Assembly (NCBI GenBank): GCA_030765645.1
Contig: JAVCCE010000019.1
Location: forward strand, 1 to 64,000
DNA length: 64,000 bases
Direction of reading: 5' to 3'
From: Candidatus Hinthialibacter antarcticus
Lineage (GTDB): Bacteria; Hinthialibacterota; Hinthialibacteria; Hinthialibacterales; Hinthialibacteraceae
In this document: positions 2,701 to 8,555 of the stretch, piece after piece
Position numbering within the stretch: position 1 is the stretch's first letter
Layout of the letters: every line of letters starts with the position of its first letter
Notes under the pieces: model-generated
Told to the model about the DNA's origin: nothing
Database searches by the model: none
Seen by the model: only the letters and a program-made list of their open reading frames with translations
Made by a program: the position numbers and the translations under genes

Positions 2701-2727
2701 GAGCATCCTCCGTGAATGGGGTTCATC

Positions 2728-2741
2728 CGGCATCCGTGCCG
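2728..2741 (-). promoter_or_regulatory. GGA-loop hairpin in the first flagellin leader
   Basis: Read on the minus strand, CGGCA-CGGA-TGCCG forms a five-pair stem with GGA in the loop, 28 bases upstream of the start codon. A second GGATG follows at once, and the Shine-Dalgarno itself reads ACGGAGGATG. This is the shape bound by CsrA/RsmA proteins; binding is inferred from the shape only. Confidence 0.45.
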
Positions 2742-4228
2742 AATGGGTTTTCAGCCGTTTGGGCTGCACCTGCCCGCTATCTGCAGTGGGTGCTGCACTG
2801 GTTGACCATTGCCGCCGGGGCGTCGAGTGAGGCGCCTCGGCGATCGTCATCCAGTCGCGGGTCAGGCGTTAGGGCGCTTATTTCCGGCGCAGCGTTGAAG
2901 GGCGGTTCCGACGAGTGATCGGACGCGTCTTCGGCTTTGCTGGAATGATTCATGCGCTTGGCGGATGCCCGGCGGCTGTCAAAACGGAGTTTGATCGCTG
3001 CCAGGGGGGGCTGTAAACGACGAGCGCATGAAGGGTGCTTTGCGTTTGAGATTGGCCATAGCCAATGTCATGAGAATATTCGCCATTGCCGTCGACGCCA
3101 GGAAGTCAACCTGGCCCACTCCGAACTTCACGAAGTGGAGACGGGGCTATGTTGTGTTGCGTGACGTCGCCTACCTCCTTGGGAATCTTTTTTTGGTTTT
3201 CTTTAAGCGCAGTTGCGCATAGTTCTATATTTGTTCATCCACTCGCATCCGGTGGGCCAGACTTGGCCCTGGCCGGGGAGGTGGTTTTTTCCTGATAAAA
3301 ATGTATCGGGTCTTGCGGTGTTTCATTGTTCGTCCCTCTTCGCTTCTTTTGACGGCGCCAGCGCTTGCGTAGAGCTTCGCTGTGATGACCGCCTACACAC
3401 TGCTTTGAATCTTCGCGTACAGGATTCGAACCCGTCCCGCCTATCTCGAACGCCGCCTCAGGCCGCCCAATCGCGAGTCAGGCGATTGCAGCGCGTTGCG
3501 TTCCCTGCCGGGACTTCTGTCGCCCAGGCAAGAAGGAAAGGCCCCTGAAAGCACCGCGACCAAGGCTCCCGCCCCTGCGGGAATGACCAGTTCCTCGGAA
3601 ACGCAATGGGCGCATTGAGCCGCAGAACCACTGTGTTTCAAGGACCTTCCTTTGCGTTCGTTCTAAGAAACCTGCGCCGTTGGCTGACGCATCACTTCGG
3701 GAGCCCTCATTCCCATCCCGTGGATGGAGGAAGAAAAGCTGTATCCGCCGGATGGCATGAGAGGGTAAATTCCGCACCGTCTCGTTCTCCCTACTGGCCC
3801 GCCGAATCGCCGTTTGTCGCACCGCACAGCAAAAAGGCGGAGGATGTCGCCGGCAAGCGTCGCCGGTATCCGTTTCTTCGTTATTCGTTCACTGTTTCAA
3901 CTGCATCCCTGGCGCCGAAGCGCTTTAGGAATACGCCAACCGGCAAGCCGGCGACTGCCGAAATGCTTTGCGTAGTTGTCTACGAAGCCCGTCGGCGAAG
4001 TCCATCACTGAGTGAATCAATACCATCGTCGTTCTCCTCGCTGTCAGGTTGCAAGCGTCGTTCAGCAGTAGAAACCATCTCTGTAAGCATCGCTGGACTA
4101 CACTCCTGAAGAGTCCCCGTCCGGGGGATCGTCTCTTCAACGCCAGGGCCAATGAAACCTTTTCGTTGACACTGGGGTTGAGGCGGCGATCCTTTGTCTG
4201 GTTTGTCGTTTTCTCCTTATTTTTAGGC

Positions 4229-4283
4229 GCAATCCGGGCGGGGTGGAGCTGCGGAGCGTCGTGCTCCACCCCGCTCCGGTTGC
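4229..4283 (-). terminator. Strong hairpin downstream of the second flagellin
   Basis: A 12-pair perfect stem (4238-4249 with 4263-4274) is extended by GCAA/TTGC and CCGG pairs with a one-base bulge. It sits 39 bases after the flagellin stop codon. No T tract follows on the minus strand, so it may stabilise the 3' end or be a palindromic repeat, and not a classical intrinsic terminator. A second hairpin lies at 4108-4138. Confidence 0.45.
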
Positions 4284-4321
4284 AATTACCGAGCGTTTCC
4301 AACAACCAAGGGGAAGACCCC

Positions 4322-6880
4322 TTATCCGAGTAGCGAGAGTAAGTTTTGCGGCAAGAAGTTTGCCTGCGCGAGGACTGACGTCCCCGACTGGAATATGATC
4401 TGGTTAGACGTAAAGTTAGAGACTTCTTGAGCGAAGTCCACATCGCTGATGCGTGATTCCGATGCAGACAAGTTTTCTGAAGCCACTGACAGGCTTTGAA
4501 TGGTCGTTTCTAAGCGATTGGTGAATGCGCCTAGCGCTGCCCGCGTCCGGCTGATTTGGTCAAGAGCCTTGTCGATGATCTCAAGCGACTCATTGGCGCC
4601 TTCAACGGTGGTCACGTTGATGTTACTGATGGTGCGTCCACTGTCTAAACCAAAGCCTAAACTTGTTCCATGTAGGCTTGGAATATTGACTTGTAAGTCT
4701 TGTCCTTTGAACGGCCCCACCTGAAAATTCAACGCATTGTTGGTGGTGGTCAGCTGTATCGCCATGCCGTTATTGCGCGAGCCATCGGTTGGAGGCCCGG
4801 TGATATCGAGGATGGCGTCAAAGTCAAGCATGATGGTTTCGGCTACGCCGTCGCTGAATCCACTTTCAAAGAAGACATTGCTGTCGCCGTTTTGAAAGGT
4901 CACTGTGGCGCCGCCGTTGAGGCTGCCGATAAATTCTTTTTCAATAACCGCCGCTGTATCTGTGCCGCGATTGAAGATCGCATCGTCGATAGCCGTGCGG
5001 AAACCAGAGCCAAGACGCATCACCAGGCGTTCTTGCGCTTCACCGAATTTTGTCGGCGTCTGCCCCAGCAGTTCAAGCGTATCGCCAATGACGACGCGCT
5101 GACGCGGGCCTCCGTCGATGCGAATCGTGGCGGTTTCAGGCGTTCCGTCGAAGATCAATTCGCCGCGGTCGGGTACTGTCCGAGTGGTATTTTGGTCTTT
5201 CACTGTGAAGAAGATGCCCGATTTCGAGAAATTGGCCTCATCATCAACCAGACGCAACGTACCGTTGCCCGACACCGTAAGCATGGAGTCTTGGAAGCCG
5301 CTTTGCAGGTTCGGGCCGTTGACGCCGCGTGAACGGTCGCGGTAATTCAGTTCATCCACCAAACCGCCTAAGGTCGCGATGGTTCCGTCGCCCAAGTTGG
5401 TATCGGTCAATGGGTCTTGGGAAATGGTGAAGATGGTTTCAAAGGTCGTACCATCGACGTTGATTCCCTGCATGGTCAGCGTATCGCCAGTTGCCAGGGC
5501 AATACCGGTGTCGTTCGTCGTGAAGGTTCCGTTGACGAAGGTGCCGTTAAGAATGACCTGGTCGTTGGTTCGCGCCAATGAGATACTGCGGTCAATGACC
5601 GTGCCGGAGCGCAGACGGAAACCAAGCGTGGTTTCGGTCTCGCGGCGGCGCGGCGGTACGATATCGGTCACTTCGATGCCGAAATCGCCCGAACTAAAGG
5701 TCGAGCCAGTGATGGCTTGCGACAAGTTGCCGATTTGAGCGCCCACTTGCTGGCCCTGGACGTAGTCGCGGGTAATGCCCATCGAGTTACGCTGGACGCC
5801 AGCCGTAGTAATGACGGTAAAGTTAATATTAAATTGCGACGGCGCATCCGTCGTGCTGGCATTGGTGGTTGTTGTCGTACCCGCCGCTTGTGCGCTCAAG
5901 AAGCGCATGCGTCCCAAACCTTGGGCGGTGGTGAAACCGTTTGCCGCCAAAGAAACGTGGGTTTGAACAAACGAACCGGGGATATTCGTCGCAACGCCGC
6001 CGAATAATGCGGTTTCGGCGTTATCCACTGCGGTTTGAATTTGCGTTTCGAGGTTGGCCATGGTCTGCGTACCAACGCTGATCGAACCCGCAAACGGGGT
6101 CACGCCGTCTGATAACACGCCCTGGAAGGCGATCACGTCGCCGGTAACGGTTGAAACGCCGTCAAACGTGATGGCGTTTAATGCGGTTGTACGCGCGGCG
6201 GCTGTCGTCGTGGCGGCTTGTAGGTTGAATTGACCGACGGAAACCGCGACGTCTGTCGCATCGCCGATTCCAGTCGCAAAAAAGGCTTGCCCGTCTTCTT
6301 CTTTAAAGGGAAGAAGTTTTTCGGAACCCGCCTCAGTCTGAACGATATTAAGGATTGAAATGCCTGACTTTAGGTTACTGGCATTGGGGTCTTTAGAAAC
6401 ATTAACGCCCAAATCGTCTTGCCCTTTTTTCACTTCCGTCTTGTTGGCGTTGTCGCCAGAGAACAAGAGACGGTTGCTAAAGCGGGCGGTGGACGCAATG
6501 CGGTTGACTTCGTCGATTTGTTGGAAGACTTCTTCTTGGATCGCCTGGATGGCTTCGCTGTCGAGTGTGCCTGTGTTTCCGGCTTGAATCGACAGTTCAC
6601 GAATCCGCTGTAGGCTTTGAACGAGCGCATCAAGCGAGGCTTCAGTGGTATTGACCATACTGATGCCGTTTTGCCCGTTTTGGATGGCTTGGTTAGTGCC
6701 GCGGATTTGGGTACGGAGGCGTTCACGAATCGTCAAACCGGCTGCATCGTCGCCAGCGCGATTGATGCGTAAGCCCGAAGACAATCGTTCGATATTTTTG
6801 GCGAGCGCGTCGCCATTGGTGTTGAGGTTTCGTGTTGCCCGAATGGCGGCAACATTGTTATTAATGCGGGTAATACTCAT
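4322..6880 (-). CDS. Flagellin, giant type (852 residues)
   Basis: Second filament subunit. The N-terminus MSITRINNNVAAIRA and ERLSSGLRINRAGDDAAG, and the C-terminal VDFAQEVSNFTSNQII and FLPQNLLSLLG, are the conserved D0/D1 helices. The central 570 or so residues are a large variable domain. It shares blocks with the paralogue at 163-2700 (IAFQGVLSDGVTPF, LTMQGINVDGTTFE, SLNGGATVTFQNG), so the two arose by duplication and then diverged. The ATG at 6880 is chosen because GGAGGAT lies just upstream and the conserved N-terminus begins there; the open frame continues 42 codons further into the leader. A sigma-28-like promoter lies at 7083-7108 and a GGA-hairpin leader at 6881-7015. Confidence 0.95.
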   Translation of the reverse strand: MSITRINNNVAAIRATRNLNTNGDALAKNIERLSSGLRINRAGDDAAGLTIRERLRTQIRGTNQAIQNGQNGISMVNTTEASLDALVQSLQRIRELSIQAGNTGTLDSEAIQAIQEEVFQQIDEVNRIASTARFSNRLLFSGDNANKTEVKKGQDDLGVNVSKDPNASNLKSGISILNIVQTEAGSEKLLPFKEEDGQAFFATGIGDATDVAVSVGQFNLQAATTTAAARTTALNAITFDGVSTVTGDVIAFQGVLSDGVTPFAGSISVGTQTMANLETQIQTAVDNAETALFGGVATNIPGSFVQTHVSLAANGFTTAQGLGRMRFLSAQAAGTTTTTNASTTDAPSQFNINFTVITTAGVQRNSMGITRDYVQGQQVGAQIGNLSQAITGSTFSSGDFGIEVTDIVPPRRRETETTLGFRLRSGTVIDRSISLARTNDQVILNGTFVNGTFTTNDTGIALATGDTLTMQGINVDGTTFETIFTISQDPLTDTNLGDGTIATLGGLVDELNYRDRSRGVNGPNLQSGFQDSMLTVSGNGTLRLVDDEANFSKSGIFFTVKDQNTTRTVPDRGELIFDGTPETATIRIDGGPRQRVVIGDTLELLGQTPTKFGEAQERLVMRLGSGFRTAIDDAIFNRGTDTAAVIEKEFIGSLNGGATVTFQNGDSNVFFESGFSDGVAETIMLDFDAILDITGPPTDGSRNNGMAIQLTTTNNALNFQVGPFKGQDLQVNIPSLHGTSLGFGLDSGRTISNINVTTVEGANESLEIIDKALDQISRTRAALGAFTNRLETTIQSLSVASENLSASESRISDVDFAQEVSNFTSNQIIFQSGTSVLAQANFLPQNLLSLLG

Positions 6881-7015
6881 GATCGTATCCTCCGTGATAC
6901 TGAACCCTGACCATCCTGGTCGGGTGTTTGCTTTCCTGGAGTCCGTCTCCAGGGCCGCGAGAGGCTGCCGCCGTTTCCTGAGCGCATCCTGCGCTCTTGG
7001 GCTCATCCTTGAGCC
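6881..7015 (-). promoter_or_regulatory. Flagellin leader with four GGA-loop hairpins (CsrA-type)
   Basis: On the transcript strand four hairpins follow each other: GGCTCA-AGGA-TGAGCC (7015-7000); GAGCGCA-GGA-TGCGCTC (6996-6980); a seven-pair stem with loop ACGGA (6953-6935); and ACCA-GGA-TGGT with an extended stem (6923-6905). Next comes the Shine-Dalgarno ACGGAGGATA, which also holds GGA. Three loops read ARGGAT, the core of the CsrA binding consensus. Multiple sites ending on the ribosome site are the classical layout for CsrA translational repression. CsrA itself is not in the window. Confidence 0.7.
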
Positions 7016-7082
7016 GGGCGAATGCCCTTTATTCTAAACTCGCGCCTCAACCAAATTCAATAAAAAGTAAGTATGTTAGTTA

Positions 7083-7108
7083 GTATCGGCTTTTCACAAA
7101 ATCCTTTA
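7083..7108 (-). promoter_or_regulatory. Sigma-28 (FliA-type) promoter of the second flagellin
   Basis: TAAA (7108-7105) is followed after 14 bases by GCCGATAC (7090-7083). The flagellar sigma-28 consensus is TAAA, 15 bases, GCCGATAA. The expected start is near 7076, giving a leader of about 195 bases that contains the GGA hairpins. One base short in spacing, otherwise near perfect. Confidence 0.75.
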
Positions 7109-7289
7109 GACTTTTTTTTATTTTTCTCTGCTGAAGTCTATTCGCCAATACACGTTAAATGATCGACGAATCCCTGCGCGACTTTATACTTTTTTTTGCG
7201 TATTTCTTTTTCACTCTTCTCACGCATATATATATTGTCGCCATTATTTGGCAGACTACGGGAGAATTCATTTTCCAGGAGAGACTACA

Positions 7290-8555
7290 ATGGAGTATCA
7301 TTCATCACGCAGGCAATTTTTGTCCACCGCCGCGCTTGCTGCAATCAGCGCACCCACCGCCCTTTCACAAGCAACGCCTAAAACGATTCTGCTGCGGTCG
7401 AGTTGGCAAGACGTCAACATCGGAGACATTGCTCATACGCCTGGCATGATTGAGTTCATCAAACAACGCCTGCCCGGCGTTCGGGTCATTTTGTGGCCCA
7501 ACCAGATGAACGGCCCGGTTGCGTCGATGCTCTACAAGAAATACCCGAAATTAAAGATCGTGAAAGGCGACCTCAAAAATGGCGAGCCATACGAGCGCGA
7601 TTTGAAGCAGGCCTTCGAAGACGCCGACTTGTTTCTGCACGGTTCCGGGGCGGGATTTTATACGTTGCCCCACATGCAGGCCTGGAAAAAACGGACGGGC
7701 AAACCCTACGGCGTGTTCGGCGTGACATTCTCTTCTGTCAAGGAAACACAAAAAGAGATTCTAAATAGCGCGGCGTTTCTGTTTTGCCGTGAAACCCATT
7801 CCATCAAAAATCTGCGCGAGGCGGGAATTCATTCTCCCGTGATTGATTTTGCGCCGGACGCGACCTTCAACTTGAATCTAAGCGATGACGCCAAAGCAAC
7901 CGCCTACATGAAGAAACGCGGACTGGTTGAGAACGAGTTTATCTGCTGTGTACCGCGTTTGCGCTACACCCCTTACCACCTGATGAGGATGGTCGGATGG
8001 AGCGAGGACGAAATCCTACAAAAAACCAGCGTCAATGAACTGCACAAAGAAGCCGATCACGCCAAAATGCGGGCGGCGATTGTCCGTTGGGTGCGCGAAA
8101 CCGGCAAGAAGGCGCTGCTCTGCCCTGAAATGACCTACCAGATCGCCCTATTAAAACCCATGTTGTTCGACCCGCTGCCGGATGATGTAAAGAAAAACGT
8201 GGTCATACGACAGGTCTATTGGCGGCCTGATGAAGCGGCGTCTGTCTATCGGCGGGCTTTTGCCGTCATCAGCATGGAATGCCACTCGCCGATTATCGCC
8301 GCCGTGAATGGAACGCCATTCATGTATCTGCGCCAGCCGCAAGACACCATCAAAGGGCAAATGTATTACGACATTGGCGCTGACGATTGGGTCTTTGAGA
8401 TTGAAGAATCCACGGGCGTACAAATCTCAGACAGGCTGATGGAAATGGCTTCATCGCCGGAGCAGACGAAAAACGATCTGGCGAATGCAATGGAAAAGGT
8501 AAATGAACGCTATAAAGCAGCGGCAAAGATCATGCAGGATTTTTTGCCACTATAA
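7290..8555 (+). CDS. Polysaccharide pyruvyl transferase family protein with Tat signal
   Basis: A 421-residue protein of the polysaccharide pyruvyl transferase type: N-terminal WQDVNIGDIAHTPG, central FLHGSGAGFYT and a late SMECHSPIIAAVNGTPF with the conserved His/Pro loop. Family members usually move a pyruvyl ketal from phosphoenolpyruvate to a sugar, but many relatives are uncharacterised. The N-terminus SRRQFLSTAALAAISA is a twin-arginine signal, so this copy is probably exported, unusual for an enzyme that needs phosphoenolpyruvate; another activity is possible. The ATG at 7290 follows AGGAGA at 7277-7282. It stands alone; its 3' end overlaps the convergent hemolysin III gene by six bases. 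Confidence 0.75.
   Translation: MEYHSSRRQFLSTAALAAISAPTALSQATPKTILLRSSWQDVNIGDIAHTPGMIEFIKQRLPGVRVILWPNQMNGPVASMLYKKYPKLKIVKGDLKNGEPYERDLKQAFEDADLFLHGSGAGFYTLPHMQAWKKRTGKPYGVFGVTFSSVKETQKEILNSAAFLFCRETHSIKNLREAGIHSPVIDFAPDATFNLNLSDDAKATAYMKKRGLVENEFICCVPRLRYTPYHLMRMVGWSEDEILQKTSVNELHKEADHAKMRAAIVRWVRETGKKALLCPEMTYQIALLKPMLFDPLPDDVKKNVVIRQVYWRPDEAASVYRRAFAVISMECHSPIIAAVNGTPFMYLRQPQDTIKGQMYYDIGADDWVFEIEESTGVQISDRLMEMASSPEQTKNDLANAMEKVNERYKAAAKIMQDFLPL

Follow-up and report, generated by a model that had tools for sequence, protein, structure and literature searches.

The analysed window, a stretch of 64,000 nucleotides from 'Candidatus Hinthialibacter antarcticus' (genome of 5.1 Mb; close relatives JABLXU, 'Candidatus Omnitrophota' bacterium Ch114, and WGLV01, RI_285), contains two flagellin genes, designated flagellin A and flagellin B (Table 1). 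The source genome encodes seven Flagellin_N genes with open frames of about 800–910 aa, which is long for flagellins. Flagellin A was called giant in the initial annotation, a term that in published use is applied to flagellins of over 1000 aa (PMC6248924) and does not fit a protein of its length. One ortholog of flagellin A per genome was found in 9 genomes of the order. The start of flagellin B was placed by alignment with other flagellins. The region between the two genes (2701–4321), of about 1.6 kb, contains no obvious gene. Upstream of the flagellin A promoter, and divergent from flagellin A, lies a gene for polysaccharide pyruvyl transferase (7248–8555, plus strand).

Table 1. Flagellin genes of the window and the elements of their leaders.
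Feature	Position	Strand	Sequence or remark
Flagellin B	163–2700	−	second flagellin of the window, by domains
Flagellin B SD site	2706–2716	−	TTCACGGAGGA
Flagellin B upstream hairpin	2724–2745	−	CATTCGGC-[ACGGAT]-GCCGGATG
Flagellin A	4322–6880	−	852 aa; Flagellin_N and Flagellin_C
H5	6885–6900	−	GTATC-[ACGGAG]-GATAC; Shine–Dalgarno (SD) inside the loop
H4	6909–6921	−	GACC-[AGGAT]-GGTC; upstream half of the phylum-wide pair
H3	6935–6953	−	CCTGGAG-[ACGGA]-CTCCAGG; folds
H2	6980–6996	−	GAGCGC-[AGGAT]-GCGCTC; folds
H1	7000–7015	−	GGCTC-[AAGGAT]-GAGCC; folds
Sigma-28-type promoter	7083–7108	−	TAAAG-N13-GCCGATAC; matched in f1 orthologs

Analysis of the flagellin A leader on the minus strand showed the presence of five GGA-loop hairpins, H1–H5, all upstream of the coding sequence. 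The minimum-energy folds of 6850–7076 (z = −3.7) and 6878–7025 (z = −2.5) contain all five. When 24 nt of coding sequence were folded together with the 196-nt leader, the H5 3' arm paired around codons 2–4 instead, which gives H5 a competitor close to the start codon. Within 6860–6890, this arm, GATAC, can pair with GTAT of codons 2–4 to form a rival hairpin that covers the start codon. Among 200 dinucleotide shuffles, none reached five GGA hairpins in 170 nt (mean 1.2). In a scan of both strands of the whole window, the flagellin A leader was the only place with at least three GGA hairpins per 140 nt, while the runner-up places, among which is the leader of flagellin B, have two within the same distance. 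Rfam has no family matching the array, and only a tRNA reaches the gathering score in the window.

An array of this kind had been described in the initial annotation as four hairpins, three with ARGGAT and one with ACGGA in the loop, ending at an SD that contains GGA. Folds, shuffles and the window scan bear out the array and its end at the SD, but the count rises to five because the SD itself lies in the ACGGAG loop of H5. The ACGGA loop is that of H3, and only H1 is literally ARGGAT, the loops of H2 and H4 being (C)AGGAT. H4 of the window has a pentaloop, unlike the hexaloop usual elsewhere, which counts against the main reading proposed below. The GGA-to-GGA distances from H1 to H5 are 19, 45, 28 and 23 nt; they fit bridging by a CsrA dimer, since all fall within the 10–63 nt over which one dimer can bridge two sites (PMC7652899).

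Matches to the sigma-28-type promoter were found between −228 and −256 in each of the six orthologs of family f1, with no mismatches in G000, G005 and G003, one in G001 and G002 and two in G004. This promoter and its similarly placed matches suggest that the five-hairpin array is probably located inside the flagellin A transcript, with a predicted start at about 7075 and a predicted leader of about 195 nt.

Genes of both regulatory proteins are present in the source genome, which contains one csrA (81 aa) adjoining fliW (186 aa). The best solved-structure matches are 5dmb_D for CsrA and 5dmb_A for FliW, both from the Geobacillus FliW–CsrA complex. The CsrA sequence contains the RNA-binding residues L4 and R44 as well as N55, and is of the FliW type. 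PMC6692469 lists nine conserved critical residues; by inspection, eight of them are identical, and position 18 is V and not I. Among the 14 genomes of the phylum, csrA was found in 13 and fliW in 12, and where both were found they are close together on one contig. The search in G002 detected neither csrA nor fliW, and that in G001 no fliW; assembly gaps are the likely reason for these absences, because csrA of G001 is cut by a contig end.

Conservation was analysed in 40 flagellin leaders read from the 14 genomes of the phylum. The motif CANGGAG is located at the SD in all 40 leaders, and a GGA hairpin, mostly centred near −40, lies upstream of the SD in 36 of them. The H5 site, UCANGGAGGA, is invariant among 35 distinct aligned sequences. 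In a small control set, CAN before the SD was found in 0/15 non-flagellin genes with a GGAGG SD; a script had counted 21 such genes, from which six positives, all with flagellin N-termini, were dropped.

Loops of five, six and seven nucleotides prevent a single alignment register for all leaders, so covariation in H4 was scored on 21 distinct leaders with a hexaloop, and again on a 26-row alignment. All 7 pairs of H4 show double-sided changes, with a covariation score of 0.586 versus 0.211 in shuffles; the scores are 0.292 versus 0.099 for H5 and, for the six f1 orthologs, 0.511 versus 0.211 for H1. The shuffles ignore relatedness of the sequences, while a slid-partner control, which keeps it, lies far below the observed covariation for H4, H5 and H1 alike. 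Accordingly, the orthologous leaders carry compensatory stem changes with the loop GGA kept. Neither of the two circumstances that the initial annotation had named as refuting its proposal, a genome lacking csrA or orthologous leaders with stems and loop GGA not conserved, was therefore encountered.

The upstream hairpins are conserved in the f1 orthologs to different degrees. H1 keeps its NNGGAN hexaloop in all six, with the stem changed on both sides. H2 is present as a hairpin, judged by eye, in all six, but its loop GGA occurs in only three (G000, G005 and G002). H3 was found in five of the six as a long hairpin whose loop contains GGA and whose stem letters are replaced; it is weak in G002. 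Under one counting rule, the flagellin A leaders of f1 contain 5, 5, 4, 4, 4 and 4 GGA hairpins, and the orthologs of the sister family f2 contain two each. Among the leaders examined, the array of four to five hairpins is confined to the six f1 orthologs.

The pair H4 and H5 was represented by a covariance model, R1, of 54 positions, built from 26 leaders of this phylum only. Within the phylum, with at most 150 candidates scored per genome, R1 found flagellin leaders in 14/14 genomes. Its matches fall to background at E of about 1e-4; none of the four weak matches inspected at or above this value stands before a flagellin. In the source genome, four flagellins were matched (two on contig C19 and one each on C57 and C73), while no two-hairpin site was detected by R1 at either of the two flagellins of contig C66 or at the Flagellin_N gene of C37.

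The C66 genes form a second flagellin pair (L029 and L032; orthologs L018, L030, L031, L080, L028 and L083). Both lack the CANGGAG SD site as well as the two-hairpin unit, and by these sequence features they may escape CsrA control. In L028 of G003, CCAGGGAGGATG is located before the start. The motif TTATAGGC-N-CTTTAGC is conserved upstream of the second flagellin of the C66 type (L032, L030, L080 and L083; weaker in L081 and L082); it is the reverse complement of a sigma-28-type promoter and is directed away from the flagellin.

A search with R1 over 290 genomes at a cut-off of E <= 1e-5 gave 17 places in 13 genomes of other phyla. Sixteen of them lie directly before flagellin-like start regions, including one next to a contig end, of which only 17 residues can be seen (G222), and one with a divergent N-terminus (G172); the sole place not before such a start is G241a. 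A strong match in genome G241, L153 (C10:239745-239799), lies upstream, by about 240 nt, of a flagellin leader that itself carries an R1 match; the frame behind L153 encodes 19 aa, and the locus may represent a small gene or a tandem copy.

A further 80 flagellin leaders outside the phylum were drawn from the top entries of the flagellin list, a non-random sample to which some genomes contribute several; CANGGA[GT]G was found near the start in 55 of them. In this set, from which the phylum itself was excluded, each leader contains at most three GGA hairpins. R1 matches were not significantly associated with fliW among flagellin-bearing genomes outside the phylum (12/13 vs. 71/95, p = 0.14). 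Counted per genome, the SD site tracks fliW: it was found in 40/47 genomes with fliW and in 2/8 without (one-sided Fisher p = 0.0013, a value that serves as a guide only, since this test was chosen after the one with R1 had failed and the leaders are non-random).

Several known systems share features with the flagellin A leader. Gene hag of B. subtilis is transcribed by SigD, of the sigma-28 class, and the predicted promoter would place flagellin A under the same class. The hag leader has two CsrA sites, one over the SD and one further in the leader (PMC7652899, PMC6529632). The likeness extends to a flagellin mRNA with an SD-overlapping site and a leader site, in a genome with fliW and csrA together; the differences are five GGA hairpins instead of two sites, a different phylum, and seven Flagellin_N genes instead of one major flagellin. 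In C. jejuni, the flaA leader contains two GGA stem-loops, with the ribosome site in the downstream one, and FliW acts as the antagonist (PMC4894983, PMC6692469). The organization of the flagellin A leader is similar, but with five stem-loops, and the sponge role shown for flaA is here a conjecture.

Several CsrA sites in one leader, putative in the case of flagellin A, are also present in E. coli, namely four in glgC, in which an upstream hairpin is bridged to the SD, and six in pgaA (PMC7652899). These are not flagellin mRNAs and have no FliW, and pgaA also uses Rho-dependent termination. Serial GGA-loop hairpins are typical for the small RNAs CsrB and RsmZ, where they bind several CsrA dimers. 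Those RNAs are non-coding, whereas the array has no Rfam match, runs up to the flagellin start codon and leads into coding sequence; it is thus not a non-coding transcript of the CsrB/RsmX/Y/Z kind. No report of a five-site flagellin leader was found in the open-access literature searched, to which most subscription papers do not belong. Two-site flagellin leaders and the multi-site leaders of glgC and pgaA are already known. The best reading of the flagellin A leader is that of an expanded CsrA/FliW translational switch.

In all likelihood, the leader is a CsrA target with multiple sites, through which flagellin A comes under an export-feedback switch of CsrA and FliW. The initial annotation had likewise taken this mRNA for a putative CsrA/FliW target coupling flagellin synthesis to export, a proposal well supported by the fliW–csrA pair, the covariation and the tracking of fliW by the SD site. 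According to the mechanism proposed, a sigma-28-type RNA polymerase would produce an mRNA whose leader, about 195 nt long, carries five CsrA hairpins. CsrA dimers on the upstream hairpins would bridge to H5, with the ribosome site in its loop, and translation would be blocked. Export of flagellin would free FliW, which would remove CsrA and allow translation to restart; with accumulation of flagellin, FliW would be held by it and repression would return. The same scheme is known from hag and flaA (PMC6529632, PMC4894983, PMC6692469). H4 and H5 would represent the widespread minimal unit, and H1–H3 an addition of one family that may raise avidity and occupancy and possibly titrate CsrA from other flagellin mRNAs.

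The last of these effects could also be the main one, the leader of a presumably abundant flagellin mRNA acting mainly as a sponge whose five sites titrate CsrA from other flagellin or flagellar mRNAs. The flaA mRNA of C. jejuni does so with two sites (PMC4894983), and three further flagellin mRNAs of the source genome could respond, as they have the two-site unit. With H5 lying over the ribosome site, however, direct control of the mRNA's own translation is needed in any case, and as the main role the sponge appears unlikely, if by no means negligible. A sponge role and the translational switch do not exclude each other. It is improbable that the hairpins merely shield the 5' end of an abundant mRNA from decay, with GGA being incidental: they are stable (z from −2.5 to −3.7) and the H2 stem is kept without GGA in three orthologs, but the stems of H1, H4 and H5 vary while their GGA is fixed, the opposite of what a purely structural role predicts, and the SD site tracks fliW.

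Two other explanations concern the loop sequences themselves. The anti-SD of 16S rRNA is able to pair with GGA, and the loops could in principle be SD-like ribosome standby sites that raise translation; the upstream loops are of the form ANGGAN and lack the extended purine run of an SD, and the conserved A in front of NGGA plays no part in anti-SD pairing, which makes this explanation very improbable. Hardly credible, finally, is the possibility that the ATGs of the GGATG loops serve as start codons, either of an upstream reading frame or of an extended flagellin. The frame is indeed open in the window from 7006 to the annotated start, but the H1 ATG, at −126 in the window, stands at −128 in G005, a shift that breaks the frame; G003 has GGACG at this position, and no SD precedes the H1 ATG.

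With the expanded CsrA/FliW switch as the preferred reading, the analysis extends this type of regulation to an uncultured phylum, with covariation as evidence. It also provides a searchable model: R1, from 26 leaders of one phylum, finds flagellin leaders outside it almost without error and offers a route to the age and generality of post-transcriptional flagellin feedback. A broader proposal, which we regard as doubtful, is that H4–H5 might be an ancient cross-phylum element of flagellin mRNAs outside Rfam, and that its five-site version in f1 might both repress its own flagellin and order several flagellins via CsrA titration. For the family f1, the array raises the question of what a cell with multiple flagellins may gain from five CsrA sites, when two suffice elsewhere.
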